A stretch of DNA of 64,000 nt from Secundilactobacillus kimchicus JCM 15530. GTDB lineage: Bacteria; Bacillota; Bacilli; Lactobacillales; Lactobacillaceae. The stretch covers positions 186,001-250,000 of the forward strand of contig NZ_AZCX01000004.1 in NCBI RefSeq assembly GCF_001433995.1. The letters run 5' to 3'. The notes under the pieces were generated by a model. It searched no databases. It saw nothing but the letters and a program-made list of their open reading frames with translations, and was not told the origin of the DNA. Shown here piece after piece: positions 14,776 to 33,296 of this stretch (its first letter is position 1; the number at the start of each line of letters is the position of its first letter). The position numbers and the translations under genes were made by a program.

Positions 14776-15258
14776 ATGTATCTTGATACGATTCAGTTTA
14801 ATAAAAATAACCTGCCACAAACATTCCCTCTACCGTTAAGTGGTATGGAATATGAAGCTACCGTGGATTATAACAGTGAGAATGATCGGTTCTATTTCTC
14901 GTTAGTCGATGAAGATGGTGAAGATTTAGTGACCCGCGAACGACTAGTAGCTCAAGAAACGCTGTTTGCTGATCTACATGATGCGGCCCTACCAAGCGAG
15001 ACGCTGACGTTAATTGATGAAACTGGCCAGACTCACGAGGTTAATCTGGCGACAATTAATGATTCCATTTTTATTTCGATTGATAATCGATTTACTGGTG
15101 AGATGGACCCGAATAATCACAGTAGTGGTTACTTTAATCCTGACGGTGACGACGCCAACATGGACTTTAGCGTTGAGGAGACTTTTGAAGATGCCGATAA
15201 TGACACTGATGATAGTATCGATGATGATTCGGAGTTACAGGAAGGTGGGGGTGAATAA
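14776..15258 (+). CDS. Baseplate plug protein (DUF6983-like)
   Basis: 160 residues. The N-terminal 90 residues form a small beta protein with the pattern FPLPLSGMEYEATVDYNSEN and FYFSLVDEDGE, matching baseplate plug-type proteins encoded between XkdP and XkdQ homologues. The C-terminal 50 residues are almost wholly Asp/Glu/Asn, a strongly acidic tail that may pair with the very basic Lys-rich hub protein encoded next. The stop codon overlaps the next ATG (TAATG). Confidence 0.65.
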   Translation: MYLDTIQFNKNNLPQTFPLPLSGMEYEATVDYNSENDRFYFSLVDEDGEDLVTRERLVAQETLFADLHDAALPSETLTLIDETGQTHEVNLATINDSIFISIDNRFTGEMDPNNHSSGYFNPDGDDANMDFSVEETFEDADNDTDDSIDDDSELQEGGGE

Positions 15259-16559
15259 TGTATTTTGTTCACCGCTATGCTCGTGTTTATGTGCAATGGA
15301 AAGGCCACCAAGTTGAGTTTTTATCCTGGGACAAGGCACCAAATAATCGGGCACTAGAATTTACGCTACCGTTTACGACGGGGGTTAATCCTGATGTTAA
15401 TTCGCTAACGATGTATAACTTAACCGACAAAGAGTTTGGGTACTTTCTGCAAGGCCGCACAATTATCGTCACGGCAGGGTTTTATAATGCCGATGCTTCG
15501 GCGAAAAATGGTGGCATTGTGGCTAAAGGGACCATCAAGTCTTCAACACCGATTGCTTTAGATGGCACTGATCGGACGATCCAGGTAAACTTTAACAGTT
15601 TCCCAGATATTTCTGCTGACACGATCAAAGTTAAAAAGGTAAAGAAAGTCAAAGTAGGGATTAAGAACGATCGAAAGTCGGCAAGTGGGAAGACGATGAC
15701 GGACTATATCTCAGAATATAACCGCAAAAAGCAAGCTGAAATTGATAAGTGGATTCGCGACAACCCCAACGCAACGTCACATGAACGAGCTTTAAAAAGA
15801 AAAGCATTGAATAGTCAAAAGAAAACTCACTCAGCCAAAATCCGCAAAAAGTACGCCAAGACGAAGAAAACTAAAATTGCTAAATCTAAAATGGTCAAGC
15901 AAGTATCGTATGTAAATTTGCATTACAAGGCGGGTACCAAAGCCTTAACTATTATTCGCGACGTTGCTAAACGAGCTAAGGTTCCTCTCGGTACAGTTAA
16001 ACTTAACTACAACCATAAGTTTGCCAACGGTTATACGGTTGGGGGCAAGCCGATTAATGCTATTAAAAAGATTGCTGATAGTGCCAATACCCCAGTCTTT
16101 ATTGAAGGCGGAAAATTGTATGTCCAAGAAATGACAACAGGTCAAAAGGCCAGTTTGCATTTAACTCCAGAAACGGGTTTGATTAGTCACCCAACGCCTA
16201 GTGATGACGGCGAATACAGTGGTCAGAAGTATGAAACTCAAAGTTTAATGCGTAAAGAAATTCACGTGGGCGCACTCGTTTACATTAACGATGGTATTAA
16301 AAATTATGGTAAGTGCGTGGTGTTAAGCGGCCAACGTGAATACACTACAACCACTAGTACCGTGACTTTCCAATTTGTGCCATATGCCGCTTATCAAAAG
16401 GCACAGGCCGAAAGTCTTAAAAAGGCCAAACAGATGGCAAATGAGGAAAAAGCTAAAGCAGATTTAAAGGCCAAAAATAAACGTGTTAAGGACAAGGCGG
16501 CGCGAGGAACAGTTAAGAACAAGCGAACTAAGCGTCACAAGAAAGGAAGAAAGAAATGA
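15258..16559 (+). CDS. Baseplate hub protein (XkdQ/gp27-like)
   Basis: 433 residues. It opens with a beta domain (VYVQWKGHQVEFLSWDKAPN), followed by the late-control-protein-like part containing TKALTIIRDVAKRAKVPLGT and the GGKPINAIKKIADSANTPVF block seen in XkdQ proteins. Two Lys-rich insertions, at about 120-220 and the last 50 residues, are unusually basic and may contact the acidic plug tail or DNA. The hub trimer joins the tail tube to the central spike. The ATGA overlap with the next gene suggests coupling. Confidence 0.8.
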   Translation: MYFVHRYARVYVQWKGHQVEFLSWDKAPNNRALEFTLPFTTGVNPDVNSLTMYNLTDKEFGYFLQGRTIIVTAGFYNADASAKNGGIVAKGTIKSSTPIALDGTDRTIQVNFNSFPDISADTIKVKKVKKVKVGIKNDRKSASGKTMTDYISEYNRKKQAEIDKWIRDNPNATSHERALKRKALNSQKKTHSAKIRKKYAKTKKTKIAKSKMVKQVSYVNLHYKAGTKALTIIRDVAKRAKVPLGTVKLNYNHKFANGYTVGGKPINAIKKIADSANTPVFIEGGKLYVQEMTTGQKASLHLTPETGLISHPTPSDDGEYSGQKYETQSLMRKEIHVGALVYINDGIKNYGKCVVLSGQREYTTTTSTVTFQFVPYAAYQKAQAESLKKAKQMANEEKAKADLKAKNKRVKDKAARGTVKNKRTKRHKKGRKK

Positions 16560-18035: not shown

Positions 18036-18064
18036 AGCACTTATCATAATCGGTAAGTGCTTTT
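18036..18064 (+). terminator. Intrinsic terminator before baseplate J gene
   Basis: AGCACTTA/TAAGTGCT stem with the loop TCATAATCGG followed by TTTTATC. The stem and loop are nearly identical to terminators of the small-RNA cluster at 24201 and 24653, suggesting a shared origin. Confidence 0.7.
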
Positions 18065-22994: not shown

Positions 22995-23138
22995 ATGAAA
23001 AACCCATTTAGCTTTCCAAATTATGACACCGCAAAATTGTACAACTCTTGGGGGTTAAAGATTGATTATATGGTTAATTGGTGCCTTACCCCAGAACAAT
23101 ATAAAGAGATTACAGGTATTGACTACACGGGAAAATAG
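22995..23138 (+). CDS. XkdX-like small phage protein
   Basis: 47 residues: MKNPFSFPNYDTAKLYNSWG through MVNWCLTPEQYKEITGIDY. The W-C/V-TPE-Y-EITG pattern is the XkdX family signature. It has AGGAGG about 8 bases before the ATG. XkdX usually marks the end of the tail module just before the lysis genes in PBSX-like phages. Here the lysis genes come only after 2.3 kb of CRISPR arrays and small RNAs. Confidence 0.85.
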   Translation: MKNPFSFPNYDTAKLYNSWGLKIDYMVNWCLTPEQYKEITGIDYTGK

Positions 23139-23144
23139 TTGAAG

Positions 23145-23243
23145 TGATCGAAGTTATGGTGTAGTTTTAACACAGGATTCGAAACTCATAAAAATTGAGG
23201 TTACACCTTTTGGAAAATCCCGTTGTATCAATGATTATTTAGT
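23145..23243 (+). promoter_or_regulatory. CRISPR leader 1
   Basis: About 99 AT-rich bases directly before the first repeat of array 1. They align with the sequence before array 2: ATGGTGTA near the left end, CTCATaAAAAtTGAGG in the middle, and TATCAATGATT-TTTA next to the repeat. A GGTGTA/TACACC pair followed by TTTT could also serve as the terminator of the tail operon. Two leaders alike in sequence and length argue that both arrays are genuine units. Confidence 0.65.
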
Positions 23244-24004
23244 GTAGTCTCCGCACCAGCGGAGGTGATCCCACCCCAGTCAGCACCGATGCGGTCCAAA
23301 TCTGGTAGTCTCCGCACCAGCGGAGGTGATCCTAATGCCATTGTTATTCGAAAGGTCGACTACGTGTAGTCTCCGCACCAGCGGAGGTGATCCTGACTGT
23401 TCATATCACCCGTTGTAGACACATCCGTAGTCTCCGCACCAGCGGAGGTGATCCTATTTGATGGGGGCATTACGCTTTGACGTTGAGGTAGTCTCCGCAC
23501 CAGCGGAGGTGATCCCGCAAACGCTTCAAATGTGGACTTGGTAAATTGGTAGTCTCCGCACCAGCGGAGGTGATCCTCCTTAATATCGTCAACTTTGGTA
23601 ATCGTCGCTGTAGTCTCCGCACCAGCGGAGGTGATCCCAAAACGATTAATATGCGGACCGAATTGCTTGGAGTAATCTCCGCACTAGCGGAGGTGATCCC
23701 CAAACCGTTCAGAATATTGGTGATGGTAAAGCGTAGTCTCCGCACTAGCGGAGGTGATCCCATCTCTACACTTAACGCCGGAGACCGGGTTAAGTAGTCT
23801 CCGCACCCGCGGAGGTGGTCCTCAGAGCTTGCAAAAAGTGGACCAAATGAGTGTGTAGTCTCCGCACCCGCGGAGGTGATCCCGGGCTATCCGATACCAG
23901 CCTCGACACTGCCAAGTAGTCTCCGCACCCGCGGAGGTGATCCTGACGCGCTGTCTAACTCGATCCGCGAGCTATCGTAGTCTCCGCACTAGCGGAGGTG
24001 ATCT
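23244..24004 (+). CRISPR. CRISPR array 1, type I-E-like, 13 repeats and 12 spacers, no cas genes
   Basis: Thirteen 28-base repeats start at 23244, 23305, 23366, 23427, 23488, 23549, 23610, 23672, 23733, 23794, 23855, 23916 and 23977. Spacers are 33 bases (one of 34). The repeat begins GTAGTCTCCGC, has a tetraloop, and ends GCGGAGGTGATCC; CTCCGC/GCGGAG forms the hairpin. The GGTGATCC end and the 28+33 spacing match type I-E arrays of lactobacilli. Only the loop varies: ACCA in repeats 1-7, ACTA in 8, 9 and 13, ACCC in 10-12. The last repeat ends in T instead of C. The leader is on the left. The array lies inside the prophage between XkdX and the lysis genes. Confidence 0.97.
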
Positions 24005-24139
24005 CCGGTGGGAATGTGCCAAGCCATTTGCTCATTATCGCTTACTAACTTTTAGTTTAAATTATTAATTAGAGGTGAAAATACTATAAAAATTAAAAGA
24101 TCGTGATGTACAGAAAGGAAATAGTGATAAAATGAACAT

Positions 24140-24234
24140 GCGTGGTAATGAGTGCGGCTATACTACTCTAAAATTTGATTTTTAGGCATTTACCACGTAT
24201 AGCACTTATCTTAATTGGTAAGTGCTTTTCTTTT
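24140..24234 (+). ncRNA. Candidate small RNA A
   Basis: Extended -10 TG-A-TAAAAT at 24125-24133; the expected transcript starts at 24140, exactly where a closing stem begins. GCGTGGTAATG (24140-24150) pairs with CATTTACCACGT (24187-24198). The RNA ends in a terminator with AGCACTTA/TAAGTGCT (24201-24226) and the loop TCTTAATTGG, followed by TTTCTTTT. No ORF. It lies between the two CRISPR arrays. Confidence 0.55.
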
Positions 24235-24277
24235 GCTTAGCACTATTGAACTCGAAATTAGGTTTTATGCGGTTGTA

Positions 24278-24376
24278 TTGCTCAAAGTAATGGTGTATTT
24301 TAAAAATAAATTGTTTCTCATTAAAAAATGAGGGATATTCCTTTAAAGAAGCCGCTATATCAATGATTGTTTATTG
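24278..24376 (+). promoter_or_regulatory. CRISPR leader 2
   Basis: About 99 bases before array 2, related to leader 1 along most of its length (shared ATGGTGTA, CTCATtAAAAAaTGAGG and TATCAATGATTgTTTA blocks, with a two-base length difference between the outer blocks). The copy has diverged enough that the duplication is not recent. Confidence 0.65.
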
Positions 24377-24526
24377 GTACTCTCCGCACCCGCGGAGGTG
24401 ATCCTTCTTCCTGCGAAAGTCCCTTTGTTTTTCTCAAGTACTCTCCGCACCCGCGGAGGTGATCCCAACCAAGAGGGTATCGACATGGATCAGCAGACGT
24501 ACTCTCCGCACCCGCGAAGGCGATTC
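24377..24526 (+). CRISPR. CRISPR array 2, type I-E-like, 3 repeats and 2 spacers
   Basis: Repeats at 24377-24404, 24438-24465 and 24499-24526, with two 33-base spacers. The repeat differs from array 1 at position 4 (GTACTC instead of GTAGTC) and has the ACCC loop found only in repeats 10-12 of array 1. The last repeat is degenerate (GCGAAGGCGATTC), marking the distal end. It has its own leader on the left. No cas gene is nearby. Confidence 0.93.
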
Positions 24527-24565
24527 AGTGCTCGAAAAGTTTATGTTTCGTGCTATACTAAAAAA

Positions 24566-24684
24566 GCGCAGAAGCTGTTCCTCAAACACACAGCAGTTTC
24601 ACTCCTTTTCAAGTTAAGTAATTGACTTGGCTTCTGCGTGTCTGTAAAAAATGGCATCTATCTGAAATGGTAGGTGCCTTTTGT
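24566..24684 (+). ncRNA. Candidate small RNA B with C-rich loop
   Basis: Extended -10 TG-C-TATACT at 24551-24559, beginning 25 bases after the last CRISPR repeat. The transcript should start at 24566 with GCGCAGAAGC, which pairs with GCTTCTGCGT (24630-24639). Inside are a hairpin GCTGT/ACAGC showing the loop TCCTCAAACAC, a pyrimidine linker TTTCACTCCTTTTC that is complementary to AAAAGGAGTG ribosome sites, and a CAAGT/ACTTG hairpin. The terminator is GGCATCTA/TAGGTGCC plus TTTTG. It is homologous to RNA C. Confidence 0.6.
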
Positions 24685-24784
24685 TTACAACTAACCTGGT
24701 TGTGAAAAGTACATTGCACCATGATTTATTGATGAATTTTCAAATAACATTATTTGTTCGAATATTTTTAGTTGTATATTGTCT

Positions 24785-24930
24785 CGATGTCAGGTATTAT
24801 TCTTGTTGGTAGCTCAGTTACTCCTCTGATACCCCTACAGTAGTTACCAGCGATAGAGACTCCCCCAAATTTTCTCGTCGCAAAATATAACCTCAAAGCC
24901 ACCTATATTCTCTCGTAGGTGGCTTTTATT
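24785..24930 (+). ncRNA. Candidate small RNA F with C-rich loop
   Basis: A TATATT -10 at 24775-24780 precedes a region with no ORF. A hairpin at 24850-24881 (GCGA..GAGA pairing with TCTCGTCGC) exposes the loop CTCCCCCAAATTT. The terminator has AAAGCCACCTA/TAGGTGGCTTT (24895-24926) then TATT. The promoter is weaker than those of the other units and the closing stem is not clear, so the 5' end is uncertain. Confidence 0.45.
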
Positions 24931-25025
24931 GTGCATCCAATTATTGAATAAGTGAGTGCACTCAATTGTTGTGATGGCCTGAAAAAGTTCTGCCCAAACT
25001 AGCCTAATGATGATATACTGCTTTA

Positions 25026-25132
25026 TGCGGAGGAGCTTCCCCAAACATGAAGCGGTTTCTCATCTTTTATTCAGGATGATCCTAGATCCTCCGCGTATGA
25101 GCACCTATTTCTTACGAAGTAGGTGCTTTTTT
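25026..25132 (+). ncRNA. Candidate small RNA C with C-rich loop
   Basis: Extended -10 TG-A-TATACT at 25011-25019. The predicted start coincides with the closing stem GCGGAGGA (25027-25034), which pairs with TCCTCCGC (25087-25094). Inside, GCTTC/GAAGC (25035-25039 and 25049-25053) shows the loop CCCAAACAT, followed by GTTTCTCATCTTTTATTC and a GGAT/ATCC hairpin. The terminator is AGCACCTA/TAGGTGCT (25100-25127) and a T run. The order of elements is the same as in RNA B, and stem sequences differ in compensating ways. Confidence 0.6.
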
Positions 25133-25225
25133 ACGGGTATAATTTAAAGCTGGTATTACGGCTCTGAAATTGAAAAGCTTTTTTCTTGAACTAAACAGAG
25201 CTTTTGCGTAGGCTATAGTAGATAG

Positions 25226-25290
25226 GACGGTTCTTGGGGAAACTAAAGGTTGGAATAGTAAAACACTCCGTTATTTTGGAGTGTTTTTTG
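25226..25290 (+). ncRNA. Candidate small RNA E
   Basis: TATAGT -10 at 25214-25219 and a strong terminator AACACTCC/GGAGTGTT (25262-25285) with a T run bound a transcript of about 65 bases without an ORF. It contains TTGGGGAA, an eight-base perfect complement of TTCCCCAA in the loop region of RNA C. It could act as an anti-small-RNA, or the match could be chance. No TG extension precedes the -10. Confidence 0.35.
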
Positions 25291-25342: not shown

Positions 25343-25450
25343 CGCGTGGTGCCAGTGGATTGCGCTTACACTTAAACTTTCTAGATTGTGATTACCTCTT
25401 GGCCTATATAACCACGCAGAGCACTTACTTATACAGTAGGTGCTTTTTAT
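25343..25450 (+). ncRNA. Candidate small RNA D
   Basis: Extended -10 TG-A-TAAAAT at 25329-25337, the same as RNA A. Closing stem GCGTGGT (25344-25350) with ACCACGC (25411-25417), then GCCA/TGGC further inside. Terminator AGCACTTA/TAGGTGCT (25420-25444) plus TTTTT. No ORF. It ends 30 bases before the first lysis gene, so it is also the boundary of the lysis module. Confidence 0.55.
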
Positions 25451-25479
25451 TTACTTAAAATTTGAAAGAAGGGGATAAA

Positions 25480-25884
25480 ATGAAAAATCAGAAACTAGTG
25501 TTTAAATCATCAATTAAAGAGAATCCGTTGCATATCATGCTTGGTCTATTTCAGATTGCCATTGGGATCCACTTGGTCTTGAGTGATCAGTATTTTATTT
25601 GGCCTCCAGTGCTGTCAGGCATTGCCAATGATGATATTTTTGGCGGGGCGTTTGTTGTCTTAGGGACGTTGTTATTGTATTGGGTAATCGATTTTAATCG
25701 TTCTGTGCGATTTGATCATGCTTTGCTGATTGTATCAGCGTTTATGATGACTTTTTTGACCTGTCTTCAGCTGGCACACTTTATCAAGCTGGGTATTGAT
25801 ATGCCGTGGATTAGTAATGCGGCTTTAACTGTAGTGGTTTTTTATTTAGCTAAACGGAGTGATTCGGGGAGCGCTTCGTTATGA
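25480..25884 (+). CDS. Small membrane protein of the lysis module
   Basis: 134 residues from the ATG at 25480 (AGAAGGGG upstream; the TTG at 25462 has no ribosome site). Four hydrophobic segments are visible: near residues 17-35, 52-75, 85-105 and 110-125. It is the first gene of the lysis block and overlaps the next gene by four bases (ATGA). It may be a holin-associated or antiholin-like membrane protein. No family is recognised. Confidence 0.55.
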   Translation: MKNQKLVFKSSIKENPLHIMLGLFQIAIGIHLVLSDQYFIWPPVLSGIANDDIFGGAFVVLGTLLLYWVIDFNRSVRFDHALLIVSAFMMTFLTCLQLAHFIKLGIDMPWISNAALTVVVFYLAKRSDSGSASL

Positions 25885-27853: not shown

Positions 27854-29299
27854 ATGACAGAAAAGCTAACTACCGAATCGGGTCAACCTTGGTCGGATAA
27901 TAATCATTCGCAAACAGCCGGGAAACGTGGCCCAGTACTGATGCAAGATTATGAACTACTTGAAAAATTGGCACATTTTAACAGAGAACGAATTCCGGAA
28001 CGAGTCGTACACGCAAAAGGAGCCGGAGCTAAAGGATCTTTTAAATTAACGAGAGATATGTCCGATTATACCAAAGCTGATTTATTTAATGGAGAAGGTA
28101 AGGAAACACCTTTGGCTATCAGATTTTCCCAAGTAGCTGGGGAGTCTGGTTATCCTGATACGATCAGAGACGTTCGGGGATTTGCGATTAAACTTTATAC
28201 TGCAGAGGGGAATTATGACATTGTTGGGAATAACACACCTGTTTTCTTTATAAATGATCCTCTAAAGTTTCCGGACTTTATTCATTCTCAAAAAAGGGAT
28301 CCGAAGACACATCTTCGAGATAATGAGATGCAATGGGATTTTTGGGCTCATTCTCCGGAAAGTACGCACCAGGTGACTTATTTGATGGGCGATCGTGGTA
28401 ATCCGGCTAGTTACAGAACTATGAATGGGTATGGAAGTCATACATTTAAATGGGTTAACGCACATGGTGAAGCTTTTTGGGTGAAGTATCACTTTATCAG
28501 TGATCAAGGTGTTCATAACATGACTGATGATGCGGCGGAAAAAATCGCAGGCAAAGACACCGATTATCTATTACATGACCTGTATGATGCTATTGAAGAA
28601 AAGAATTTCCCTAAGTGGAAAGTAGCGGTGCAGATTATTCCTTATAAAGATGGATTCAGCTATAAATCGGATATTTTTGATGTGACAAAGGTAGTATCGC
28701 ACAAAGATTACCCATTAGTCACAATAGGTGAATTTACGTTAAACGAAAATCCAACGAACTATTTCGATGAAGTCGAGGAGTTAGCGTTCTCACCGGCCAA
28801 TTTGGTACCAGGAATTGAGGCTTCACCAGATAAATTATTGCAGGGGCGTTTATTTGGGTACAAAGATGCTGCAAGGTATCGACTTGGGGCAAACTATGAG
28901 CAACTACCAATAAACCGGCCCATTAACGAGGTTCATAATTACGCTCGTGATGGATTTATGGCACAAAATCAAGATGATAGTGTTAATTACGAACCGAACA
29001 GTAAAAACGGTCCTAAAGAAGTGCATAAAGCGAAAATTCACGCAGATGGTGTGTCAGGTGAAACCGGCCATTTCAAGCCATATGATACCGACTTCTATTC
29101 ACAGGCCGGAGACTTGTATCGTTTGATGTCAGATGACGAACAAGAACGGTTAATCCAAACGATTGTTAATGCGTTTAGTACTTTCGATAATGATGAAATC
29201 AAGATCTTGGCTACGCAAAACTTCTACCATGCAGACAAAGATTATGGAAAGAGAATTGCCAGCGCGGCACATCTGGACATTTCTAAAGTTATTGATTAG
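27854..29299 (+). CDS. katA: Haem catalase
   Basis: 481 residues, with AGGGGG upstream. It converts hydrogen peroxide to water and oxygen in the cytoplasm. It has the small-subunit (clade 3 length) monofunctional catalase signatures: the distal histidine H53 in [12 protein letters not shown], the [16 protein letters not shown] block with the distal asparagine, and the proximal haem-ligand tyrosine Y336 in [17 protein letters not shown]. Lactobacilli usually cannot make haem, so activity would need haem from outside. It stands alone between a terminator and small secreted-protein genes in AT-rich DNA next to the prophage, suggesting acquisition by transfer. Confidence 0.96.
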
Positions 29300-29329
29300 G
29301 TATCTAATAAATTCAATACCACTGATAGG

Positions 29330-29360
29330 ACACCCTTCTTAAAAAGATTGGGTGTTTTTA
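29330..29360 (+). terminator. Intrinsic terminator after catalase
   Basis: ACACCC/GGGTGT stem followed by TTTTTATTTT, 30 bases after the catalase stop codon. The 240-base gap to the next gene holds nothing else recognisable. Confidence 0.7.
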
Positions 29361-29538
29361 TTTTCTTATAGTGGGCAGATGTATTACCATAATTTTTTCA
29401 TTTAAATAAATGATGCTTTCTAGTGAAGACTATTAAAAATATTAAACGATCTAGCAAAATCGCTGTAATCATTCAATTTTAAATGATGTAATGGCCGTGT
29501 ACCTGAAACAAAATATATTACTGATGGAGGCAACACTT

Positions 29539-29937
29539 ATGAAAAGATTTGTAATGCTGTTTACCACGTTGATGGCGCTGTCTGTTATGGGTATTAGTGT
29601 AAGTGCAAAAACAACTTCAACTAAAGGGCCAATGGTAGGACAGCTAAAGTATACTAAGACAAAAATGAACGCCAAATTCAACAATAACTACGGTTCATTT
29701 AAGTTATACAACCATGTACCTAACAGTAACTATAAAAAGATCAAGACAATTTCTTGGAAAAAATCAGGAATTAATTTAAAAAAGATTAGCCAATTCCCTG
29801 TCAAAGTTAACATGACCGCCAACCAGGCCACACAATATAATTGGTATCGTTTCTCAGTGTCTAAGAAGGTTAACCATAAGAATGTCACAACTAATTATTG
29901 GATTTACGGTCAAGCTCTCAAAAATATTAATAAATAA
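29539..29937 (+). CDS. Small secreted basic protein
   Basis: 132 residues from the ATG at 29539 (GGAGG upstream). A signal peptide MKRFVMLFTTLMALSVMGIS with likely cleavage after SVSA leaves a mature protein of about 109 residues, rich in Lys, Asn and Tyr. It contains SWKKSGINLKKISQFPVKV. No cysteine, wall anchor or catalytic motif is seen. It could bind the wall by charge. I do not recognise the family. A terminator follows. Confidence 0.6.
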   Translation: MKRFVMLFTTLMALSVMGISVSAKTTSTKGPMVGQLKYTKTKMNAKFNNNYGSFKLYNHVPNSNYKKIKTISWKKSGINLKKISQFPVKVNMTANQATQYNWYRFSVSKKVNHKNVTTNYWIYGQALKNINK

Positions 29938-29966
29938 AAAAAAACGGAATTCTAGTTCGATTTTCT

Positions 29967-30000
29967 AAACTGCCCATCTCTGAAGACGGACAGTTTTTTG
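29967..30000 (+). terminator. Intrinsic terminator
   Basis: AAACTG-CC/GG-CAGTTTT hairpin ending in TTTTTTG downstream of the small secreted protein gene. Confidence 0.65.
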
Positions 30001-30105
30001 TTACAAATTAAAAATAAAGTAGGCTTTATATTATACATAATTCGAATTTTGTTTGCATTAAATATGACACTATGTTAAATTTATATCCAAAAGGAGGCGC
30101 TTGCA

Positions 30106-31734
30106 TTGAAGTGTCAAAACATATTGTTTGGATTTACGATATCGTTATCGGTGAGTTTATGTTTGCTGAACGCAAATGTAACAAATGTAGTAGCTGTATC
30201 TAGTGATGAAAATCGTGAGGAGGTTAATGCACATTTAGATAACGAAAATGTAGTTTTTGGAGACGAAAGATTGGGGAAGATAGTTGCGCAGGCTATGGGG
30301 AAAACCGACAAGATAACATATGGGGACGTGCGAAACTATTCTGGAAGAAAATTAAATATTTCAGCGATTCCACATACTGTGTCGAACCTCACTTCTTTGA
30401 AGGGATTAGAATCACTTAAAGAACTCAATCATTCCGAGATTGAGTATCTTGGTTTGAATGTAGCGAAAGGCGTGTCGCTAAAACCCTTATCAGGGCTAAA
30501 AGTCTCAGATTTATCGCTGCAACAGGATGGTATGCATAACGCTGACTTTGAGGCCCTAAACAGTATTGAATTTACGGATCCTCAAAAATCGTTTAATCAT
30601 ATCGAATTAGTCGGAAATACTGAATATTCAAATCAAGAAGGATTGACCAATGACGATTTAACTCGTTTGTCACCATTATTTGAAAAGGTTGCGAAAGCGA
30701 ATCAGGGAACTAAGGATTTTGGATTTAACCTGTCGAATCAAAGAATAACAGATTTTTCTTTCTTTAATAAACCCGCTTTTAGCCGGGACATGGACATTTT
30801 TGCGACGGCAGAATTTCAGGTCTTTAGTAAAAATCCGATTTATATTGATCCAGATACATTTACTTCTGAGACGCCAATCAAGGTAACCTCGCAGGTTTTA
30901 GGCATAAAGTCTGAACCCATCCAAACCAGTACAAGGATTTATAATACAAGTACCGGTGATTGGGAGAAGATAAATAAAGACGGGAATACTTTTGTCTCTA
31001 CAGGTAACGTAGCTAAAGGAAGCAAATGGCTAATCGTGGGAAATCAATTTAATCTTGATGGGTATCCAGCAACAATAACATATGAGAACGGACAAACTCT
31101 GAGAACAGACGGATATCAGTACTACGCCTTAAAATGGGAAAAGGAACCAAGACCGACACCGACACCAACGCCGACACCAACGCCAACGCCGACACCGACA
31201 CCAACGCCGACACCAACGCCAACGCCGACACCAACACCCAAGGCAGTAGCAGTGAAGGGACAAGCAATTTATGCCATTCGGGCAGTGGGCTTATACCGAA
31301 ACGGACAGTTTAGCAAACACAATCGCATTAAGTACTATCGCAAGGCTAAGCGAATTAATCGGCCTGAGTTTGTTGTTAAGGGTTACAAACGAGATAGTCA
31401 GGGCCATTTAAGATATCGAGTACAACAATATGACCCGTATAAAGCGCGTTATGTTAAAGGCACTTCTGGATATATAACGGCTAGTTCTAGATATGTAGTT
31501 TCAGCTTACTATGCAACAAAACCAAAAACCAAAAAAATTCGAGTGATTAATCCGACTGGAATTTATGAATATAACAAATATTCGTTATCCGGGAGGAGTA
31601 CACACGTTAAAGTAGGCCAAACATTAAAAGTCACTCAAATTCGTAAATACAAGTACGCCACAAGATACCGTTTAACAAATGGCAAGTACATCACGGCGAA
31701 TAAAAAATTTGTAGTCTTTTCAAGTATCAAGTAA
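30106..31734 (+). CDS. Secreted surface protein: LRR-like domain, TP-repeat stalk, two wall-binding repeats
   Basis: 542 residues, TTG start nine bases after AGGAGG. A signal peptide spans about 1-31. Residues 45-230 show a short leucine-rich, internalin-like pattern (LTSLKGLESLKEL, LKPLSGLKVSDLSLQ). Residues 230-345 are beta-rich. Residues 350-382 are an uninterrupted run of alternating Thr-Pro (at 31150-31240), a stiff stalk. The C-terminal 160 residues carry two SLAP/DUF5776-type repeats, ending GYITASSRYV and GKYITANKKFV, likely to bind the cell wall non-covalently. No LPXTG motif. It is probably an adhesin or host-interaction protein. Confidence 0.75.
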   Translation: MKCQNILFGFTISLSVSLCLLNANVTNVVAVSSDENREEVNAHLDNENVVFGDERLGKIVAQAMGKTDKITYGDVRNYSGRKLNISAIPHTVSNLTSLKGLESLKELNHSEIEYLGLNVAKGVSLKPLSGLKVSDLSLQQDGMHNADFEALNSIEFTDPQKSFNHIELVGNTEYSNQEGLTNDDLTRLSPLFEKVAKANQGTKDFGFNLSNQRITDFSFFNKPAFSRDMDIFATAEFQVFSKNPIYIDPDTFTSETPIKVTSQVLGIKSEPIQTSTRIYNTSTGDWEKINKDGNTFVSTGNVAKGSKWLIVGNQFNLDGYPATITYENGQTLRTDGYQYYALKWEKEPRPTPTPTPTPTPTPTPTPTPTPTPTPTPTPKAVAVKGQAIYAIRAVGLYRNGQFSKHNRIKYYRKAKRINRPEFVVKGYKRDSQGHLRYRVQQYDPYKARYVKGTSGYITASSRYVVSAYYATKPKTKKIRVINPTGIYEYNKYSLSGRSTHVKVGQTLKVTQIRKYKYATRYRLTNGKYITANKKFVVFSSIK

Positions 31735-31738
31735 TTTT

Positions 31739-31780
31739 AAAACCCGCTTACCTTTTGAAGGTGAGCGGGTTTGTTTTTTT
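31739..31780 (+). terminator. Intrinsic terminator after surface protein gene
   Basis: AACCCGCT/AGCGGGTT stem with inner ACCTT/AAGGT and a following run TTGTTTTTTT. Confidence 0.8.
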
Positions 31781-31823
31781 AATAAAGGGTCACCTTGGGA
31801 AGCCTTAATCGTATCCCAAAATG

Positions 31824-32708
31824 CTAGAAAATATTTTTGCGTTTTTTAGATCGAACAAGCAACAGGCATCCTAATACAATTGCATACACAATTAACAGTG
31901 TTATTGATCCTTCTGGGCCAAAGCTACCTCCATTTATGAACTTACTTCCGATAGGTTTTGATTGAACAATTAGCCCCATATTTGCTATCCCCGAAACACT
32001 CGTTCCGAAGATAATCCCCTCTGAGAAGTTCCACGCTGCATGAAGGGTACCCAAAAACCATAATGAGTAACCATAGAGACGCAATAGCGACATTAATACT
32101 CCAAACATGAGTAACCCAATTGCTGGAATTATACTAAACGCCGAATTTAACATGTGAAGAATCATAAAGAAAAATGAGTTAGAAATGATAGCAATGATAG
32201 GTGTGCTTTTCTTTAATAATTTTCCCATCACATATCCGCGGCATAGAGCTTCCTCAAACATACTCTGGCACGCAAAACCAAACAAGAATAAGATCAACCA
32301 AACTAGATTCGTTCCCAGAAATACAAATTTGATAGTGAAACCATGTAATAATACGATTGCAAACCATACAACCGCGAATAGAATGAATCCTGCAATCCAG
32401 CCATACCCATAATTACCGATGCGATTCTTTTTGGTAAAATTAAAAAGATTGATGTCACGCTTATAGTATCTCCACATCACTAGGACGATGATACCCTCAA
32501 AGAACATAGAAGATAGTAGGAACGAATATGAATCGAAAAAATTCAGTGGGACTTTTGCTAGTCCATAAAATACTCCCGGTATTTGTGAAATAAGGACCCA
32601 AACAATTGCCACTAGCCAAACCAACAAATTATTTTTAAAAGTTAAGGCACTTTTCTTTAAAATAACAGTTTCCCCCTCATGATGAAGTTTATGGGTAGAG
32701 TATAGCAC
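31824..32708 (-). CDS. CPBP (CAAX/Abi) family membrane protease
   Basis: Up to 294 residues with about seven membrane helices. The Abi/CPBP motif EEALCRGYV (glutamate pair plus arginine) and the later HAAWNFSEG histidine motif are present, as in type II CAAX prenyl protease-like proteins. In lactic acid bacteria these often give immunity to bacteriocins. The GTG start at 32708 overlaps an extended -10 promoter (TG-C-TATACT), so translation probably starts lower. AGGGGG precedes an ATT codon at 32663 that begins ILKKSALTFKNN, a possible rare ATT start. Confidence 0.8.
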   Translation of the reverse strand: MLYSTHKLHHEGETVILKKSALTFKNNLLVWLVAIVWVLISQIPGVFYGLAKVPLNFFDSYSFLLSSMFFEGIIVLVMWRYYKRDINLFNFTKKNRIGNYGYGWIAGFILFAVVWFAIVLLHGFTIKFVFLGTNLVWLILFLFGFACQSMFEEALCRGYVMGKLLKKSTPIIAIISNSFFFMILHMLNSAFSIIPAIGLLMFGVLMSLLRLYGYSLWFLGTLHAAWNFSEGIIFGTSVSGIANMGLIVQSKPIGSKFINGGSFGPEGSITLLIVYAIVLGCLLLVRSKKRKNIF

Positions 32709-33009: not shown

Positions 33010-33037
33010 TGACTATACTCCCATATTGTTGAGAAAA

Positions 33038-33110
33038 TCACCCGCACGGGGATCGAACCCGTAACTCCGCCTTGAGAGGGCGACGTCTTAACCAATTTGA
33101 CCAGCGGGCA
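33038..33110 (-). tRNA. tRNA-Glu (anticodon CTC)
   Basis: 73 bases on the minus strand without an encoded CCA. Acceptor TGCCCGC/GCGGGTG with a U-G first pair, discriminator A, D-arm GTC..GAC, anticodon arm TCGCC-CTCTCAA-GGCGG with anticodon CTC, and T-arm ACGGG-TTCGATC-CCCGT. It reads GAG. Confidence 0.9.
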
Positions 33111-33296
33111 ATGGCTATCTAATGTTTATTAACAGATAGTATTTTACACTGTAGATTCAAAAAAAGCAACCATTCCTGTATATTATTAAATCTATCGGCT
33201 AATCATACAGCAAAAATGAAGACAAAAGTCGGGCAAAACATATTGACACTAAAAGTAAAAGACGGTACACTATTTAACTGTGAGATGACCTATTCT

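Follow-up and report, generated by a model that had tools for sequence, protein, structure and literature searches.

Type I-E-like CRISPR arrays in a prophage of Secundilactobacillus kimchicus that probably borrows the Cas machinery of its host

The window analyzed here, a stretch of 64,000 nucleotides from Secundilactobacillus kimchicus JCM 15530, contains two CRISPR arrays between the tail and lysis genes of a prophage. The island is bordered on the left by an XkdX-like tail gene (22995–23138, forward strand; PF09693, phrog_134) and on the right by a holin gene (25462–25884, forward strand; phrog_4325). Both arrays sit within a complete contractile-tailed prophage, whose length of about 54.8 kb was deduced from a 29-bp perfect direct repeat present at both of its ends. 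The first copy, outside the window, is at position C34:164276, beside the integrase gene (C34:164375–165529), and the second, attR, is at window positions 33021–33049, at the 3′ end of a tRNA-Glu gene (33037–33111, reverse strand). Arrays and repeat copies share one 293-kb contig, on which about 45 kb separate the arrays from the left copy and 8.5 kb from the right one. Genes for the large terminase subunit, major head protein, tail sheath, tape measure, baseplate hub (15258–16559, forward strand; phrog_196) and wedge, holins, and endolysin were found in the prophage. A sequence-only reading of this DNA had placed the arrays between the XkdX and lysis genes of a contractile-tailed prophage, and the XkdX, holin, endolysin, tail sheath, and integrase genes confirm that assignment. 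It had also reported the absence of cas genes from the 64 kb, which was borne out and extends to the whole prophage, since tblastn with the eight Cas proteins of the same genome detected no cas homolog in the window or in the remainder of the prophage. The arrays are thus inside the bounds of a prophage that has no cas genes of its own. Between the lysis genes and attR (27854–32708) are genes for a catalase, a DUF5776 secreted protein, and a CAAX-type protease, which appear to be prophage cargo, as they are inside attR. A transposase-like gene between the integrase and repressor genes (L014:10348–11760) is also inside the prophage, and the early region may therefore be disturbed.

Array 1 (23244–24004, forward strand) is composed of 13 repeats (GTAGTCTCCGCACCAGCGGAGGTGATCC and variants) and 12 spacers, and array 2 (24377–24526, forward strand) of three repeats (GTACTCTCCGCACCCGCGGAGGTGATCC, the final one degenerate) and two spacers. 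These are the repeat counts and the position given by the sequence-only reading. The repeat has 28 nt in both arrays and the spacers have 33 nt, with the exception of one of 34 nt. The terminal repeat of array 1 is degenerate, as is that of array 2; in ordinary arrays, a degenerate repeat is found at the trailer end. No insertion or deletion was observed in any of the 16 repeats, and the stem is preserved in 15 of them, the exception being the terminal repeat of array 2. Upstream of each array is a leader-like region (23139–23243 and 24272–24376, respectively, both on the forward strand), recognized from the strong similarity of the two 100-base flanks (z 11.6 relative to dinucleotide shuffles), in agreement with the earlier description of the arrays as leader-bearing. 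With 28-nt repeats containing a short hairpin, unique spacers of about 33 nt, and a leader, the arrays have the features of type I-E.

A row of small units, each of them ending in a strong terminator, adjoins the arrays at 24135–24240, 24565–24695, 24790–24935, and 25025–25140, and further units of this kind are at about 25229–25290 and 25418–25446. The four tested units are predicted to fold far better than shuffled sequences (z −4.4 to −5.7). No matching Rfam family was found for these units, and they may represent small RNA genes that the prophage carries in tandem. A type I toxin–antitoxin reading, suggested by the parallel with Clostridioides difficile, was set aside, as no convincing toxin open reading frame could be identified. 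The terminator hairpin that follows array 1 (24201–24229) recurs with 93% identity at 18036–18064, between two baseplate genes.

The distance from the XkdX gene to the holin gene is 2.3 kb in this prophage. The two genes are separated by 16 bp in the Lactobacillus brevis phage 3-SAC12, about 50 bp lie between their matches in a Lentilactobacillus senioris prophage, and in a Secundilactobacillus oryzae prophage a gap of about 0.5 kb holds small open reading frames and no repeats. Compared with these distances, the array island is best read as an insertion relative to the sister phages. Stretches from 17 related prophages and phages were inspected, several of them ending before the holin gene, and no array was observed in these. 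When the exact repeat pattern was searched for in IMG/VR, in a collection of 84,980 species, and in 398 genomes of the family, it was found only in this genome, the IMG/VR match being a contig identical to the window. The sequence-only reading had proposed looking for the same repeat in related Lactobacillaceae phages, and none besides this prophage carried it in IMG/VR, the 398 family genomes, or the stretches of the 17 relatives. When two mismatches were allowed, the pattern was also detected in the chromosomal arrays of one congener.

A complete type I-E operon, with cas3, cse1, cse2, cas7, cas5, cas6e, cas1, and cas2 in this order, the last one fused to a DnaQ-like exonuclease, is present in the same genome on another contig (C12). 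The matching cas genes that the sequence-only reading had proposed to search for, from cas3 to cas6e, are thus all in the same cell, together with Cas1e and Cas2e and with near-identical repeats. Four arrays with different repeat variants come after the operon. These host arrays (L010:12440–18850, G000 C12) are separated by Fic-domain genes or fragments, which look duplicated along with the leaders. The repeats of the host and of the prophage are up to 26–27/28 identical, and for array 1 the identity is 22–26/28 (two to six differences), most of the differences being in the loop. A single stem position is altered on both sides together (TCTGC/GCAGA versus TCCGC/GCGGA), as would be expected if Cas6e reads the hairpin. 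By sequence, the prophage repeats are thus compatible with the host system.

The leaders show a different relationship. In comparisons of 100 bases, those of the prophage resemble the leader of a chromosomal array of one congener (z 4.7 for array 1 and 5.5 for array 2), while their likeness to the leaders of this host is weak (z up to 2.6). This hints that the arrays may have been captured elsewhere within the genus. For the same reason, it is uncertain whether the Cas1–Cas2 of this host would recognize the prophage leaders, given their faint similarity to its own. Several arrays of this congener (L110/L111, G007 C7:25884–47545) together contain about 140 type I-E repeats.

All 14 prophage spacers begin with C or T, as do 41 of the 42 host spacers and 119 of the 121 congener spacers, and the three sets thus appear to obey one acquisition rule. 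An AA was found directly upstream of the match of prophage spacer 4, as well as at the sites that two spacers of the congener match in genes of related phages, and these three sites fit a putative 5′-AA motif followed by a pyrimidine. One of the two congener spacers matches the tail-sheath gene of this prophage (26/33), and the other a baseplate gene of a related prophage (28/33).

Two of the 14 prophage spacers could be traced to phage genes, and the other 12 are without a secure target. Spacer 4 of array 1 (23455–23487, forward strand) encodes YLMGALRFDVE and matches the major capsid genes (PF05065) of other prophages at 27/33 bases, with AAA upstream, while the reversed-spacer controls reached a maximum of 23; its peptide scored 53, and the best control 43. 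Spacer 9 of array 1 (23761–23793, forward strand) encodes SLHLTPETGL, and this peptide is identical in frame, in 10/10 residues, to the baseplate hub of the prophage itself (BLOSUM score 52 versus a control maximum of 40). Only 21/33 bases are shared with the hub gene, many of the differences being at third codon positions, and because of this combination of an identical peptide with diverged DNA, spacer 9 was probably derived from the hub gene of a related sister phage. In Levilactobacillus prophages, SLHLTPETGL is found with one change, and the DNA match to the spacer is no better (19–22/33). As the copy of the carrier (16150–16182) has 12 mismatches to spacer 9 and GG upstream, its own hub gene should be spared.

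None of the 14 spacers yielded an exact protospacer, and direct BLAST searches against INPHARED, PLSDB, and 120 related genomes gave weak matches at most. Apart from a 19-nt match, which is at the level of chance, no self-target was detected within the genome, and none with a PAM. Three further candidates were not retained. The first spacer of array 2 matches a helix-turn-helix gene of Listeria-type genomes at 28/33 bases, but this is a conserved motif, and the upstream bases are CAAT, with no AA adjoining the spacer; spacer 6 matches the same major capsid gene as spacer 4 at 23/33, which is the control level; and the match of spacer 2 to the start of a GH25 lysin (VVDLSNNNGI) is plausible, yet the controls score in the same range.

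Prophage arrays that rely on the Cas proteins of the host are already known. In C. difficile, type I-B arrays are described as common in prophages and as dependent on the host cas operons, and measurements there placed the prophage crRNAs among the most highly expressed (PMC6079278, citing Hargreaves 2014 and Boudry 2015 for these arrays). As in the present case, those arrays have several spacers in a prophage without cas genes, rely on host operons, and were proposed to block competing phages; they differ in being of type I-B with measured crRNAs, while the arrays described herein are of type I-E, in a Lactobacillaceae host, and known from sequence. The earlier mention of mini-arrays in a few Gram-positive phages therefore named a real precedent but understated it, since prophage arrays are reported as common in C. 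difficile (PMC6079278). Among archaeal viruses, SPV1 and SPV2 carry mini-arrays with leaders, and phage mini-arrays are said to be leaderless (PMC6858448). Like the arrays of this prophage, those of SPV have leaders and repeats resembling the host's, come without cas genes on the virus, and target related viruses while sparing the carrier. Viral and phage mini-arrays have, however, only one or two spacers, a size that array 2 alone (two spacers) would fit, in contrast to the 12 spacers of array 1, and both arrays of this prophage have leader-like regions, unlike the phage mini-arrays. Type I-E is described as the commonest type I system in lactobacilli (PMC6070500), and the 28-nt repeats, the 33-nt spacers, and a full I-E operon in the genome are shared with these chromosomal systems, with the difference that the prophage arrays are on another contig, away from cas. 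In the open-access literature, mainly titles and abstracts, we found no earlier account of a Lactobacillaceae prophage with type I-E arrays. What appears to be new is the type I-E class in a Lactobacillaceae host, with an organization unusually complete for a phage, and we agree with the sequence-only reading that this is a well-developed case.

Because a complete and matching Cas system is encoded elsewhere in the genome and some of the spacers point at genes of other phages, the prophage probably borrows the immune system of its host. The use of host Cas proteins against competing phages, as first suggested, is supported by the matching I-E operon, the att bounds, and the two phage-gene spacers, and we consider it likely that the prophage feeds crRNAs to the host Cascade and Cas3 and in this way excludes competitors. 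In such a scheme, the lysogen would transcribe the prophage arrays, and the host Cas6e would cut the transcripts into crRNAs of about 61 nt. These crRNAs would load the host Cascade and guide Cas3 to incoming related or competing phages, while the diverged genes of the prophage itself would escape through mismatches. The host Cas1e–Cas2e might also add spacers at the leader end.

Another reading is that a piece of a chromosomal array was captured with its leader by recombination and persists as an inert passenger with no present role, its spacers recording the history of the donor bacterium. The similarity of the leaders to that of the congener makes a capture likely, and a single genome is known to carry the array. 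Nevertheless, the passenger reading seems improbable to us, as it sits poorly with 16 repeats free of indels whose stems are intact save in the terminal repeat of array 2, with the existence of two arrays each having a leader, and with a spacer that mirrors the hub gene of the carrier, which suits a phage better than a random donor. The Racr are repeat RNAs from prophages that act as inhibitors of Cas proteins and are described as single repeat units (PMC11656645), and the repeats of the present prophage likewise match those of the host system, so they could in principle act as a decoy, soaking up Cas6e and Cascade and shielding the prophage from host immunity. We regard this anti-CRISPR-like role as very unlikely, since a Racr is a solitary repeat without functional spacers and the arrays are complete, with 16 repeats and 14 spacers of exact length that obey the acquisition rule, two of them with phage targets. 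Finally, even though the genome is a 45-contig draft, a host array broken by phage integration or by an assembly error is scarcely credible as the origin of this DNA, because both att copies flank the arrays on the same contig and the late genes on either side keep the order of related phages; the split chromosomal array that the sequence-only reading had held against itself is likewise contradicted by the att sites and by the relatives without the insert.

The use of the host Cascade by the prophage, which remains the preferred reading, may be part of a broader picture. It is conceivable, though we put it forward tentatively and with some doubt, that the prophage serves type I-E hosts as a mobile immune memory, with arrays captured from another Secundilactobacillus lineage, still extended by the host Cas1e–Cas2e during dormancy, moving between strains, and aimed at sister phages whose genes diverge from those of the prophage mainly at synonymous positions.

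These arrays extend prophage-borne, host-Cas-dependent CRISPR from the systems already described to type I-E and to the lactic acid bacteria. A spacer that encodes the hub peptide of its own carrier with diverged codons provides a clear signature of conflict between phages at the sequence level. The prophage also makes testable, in a food-type bacterium, the idea that a phage may build and spread immune memory by means of the adaptation machinery of its host.
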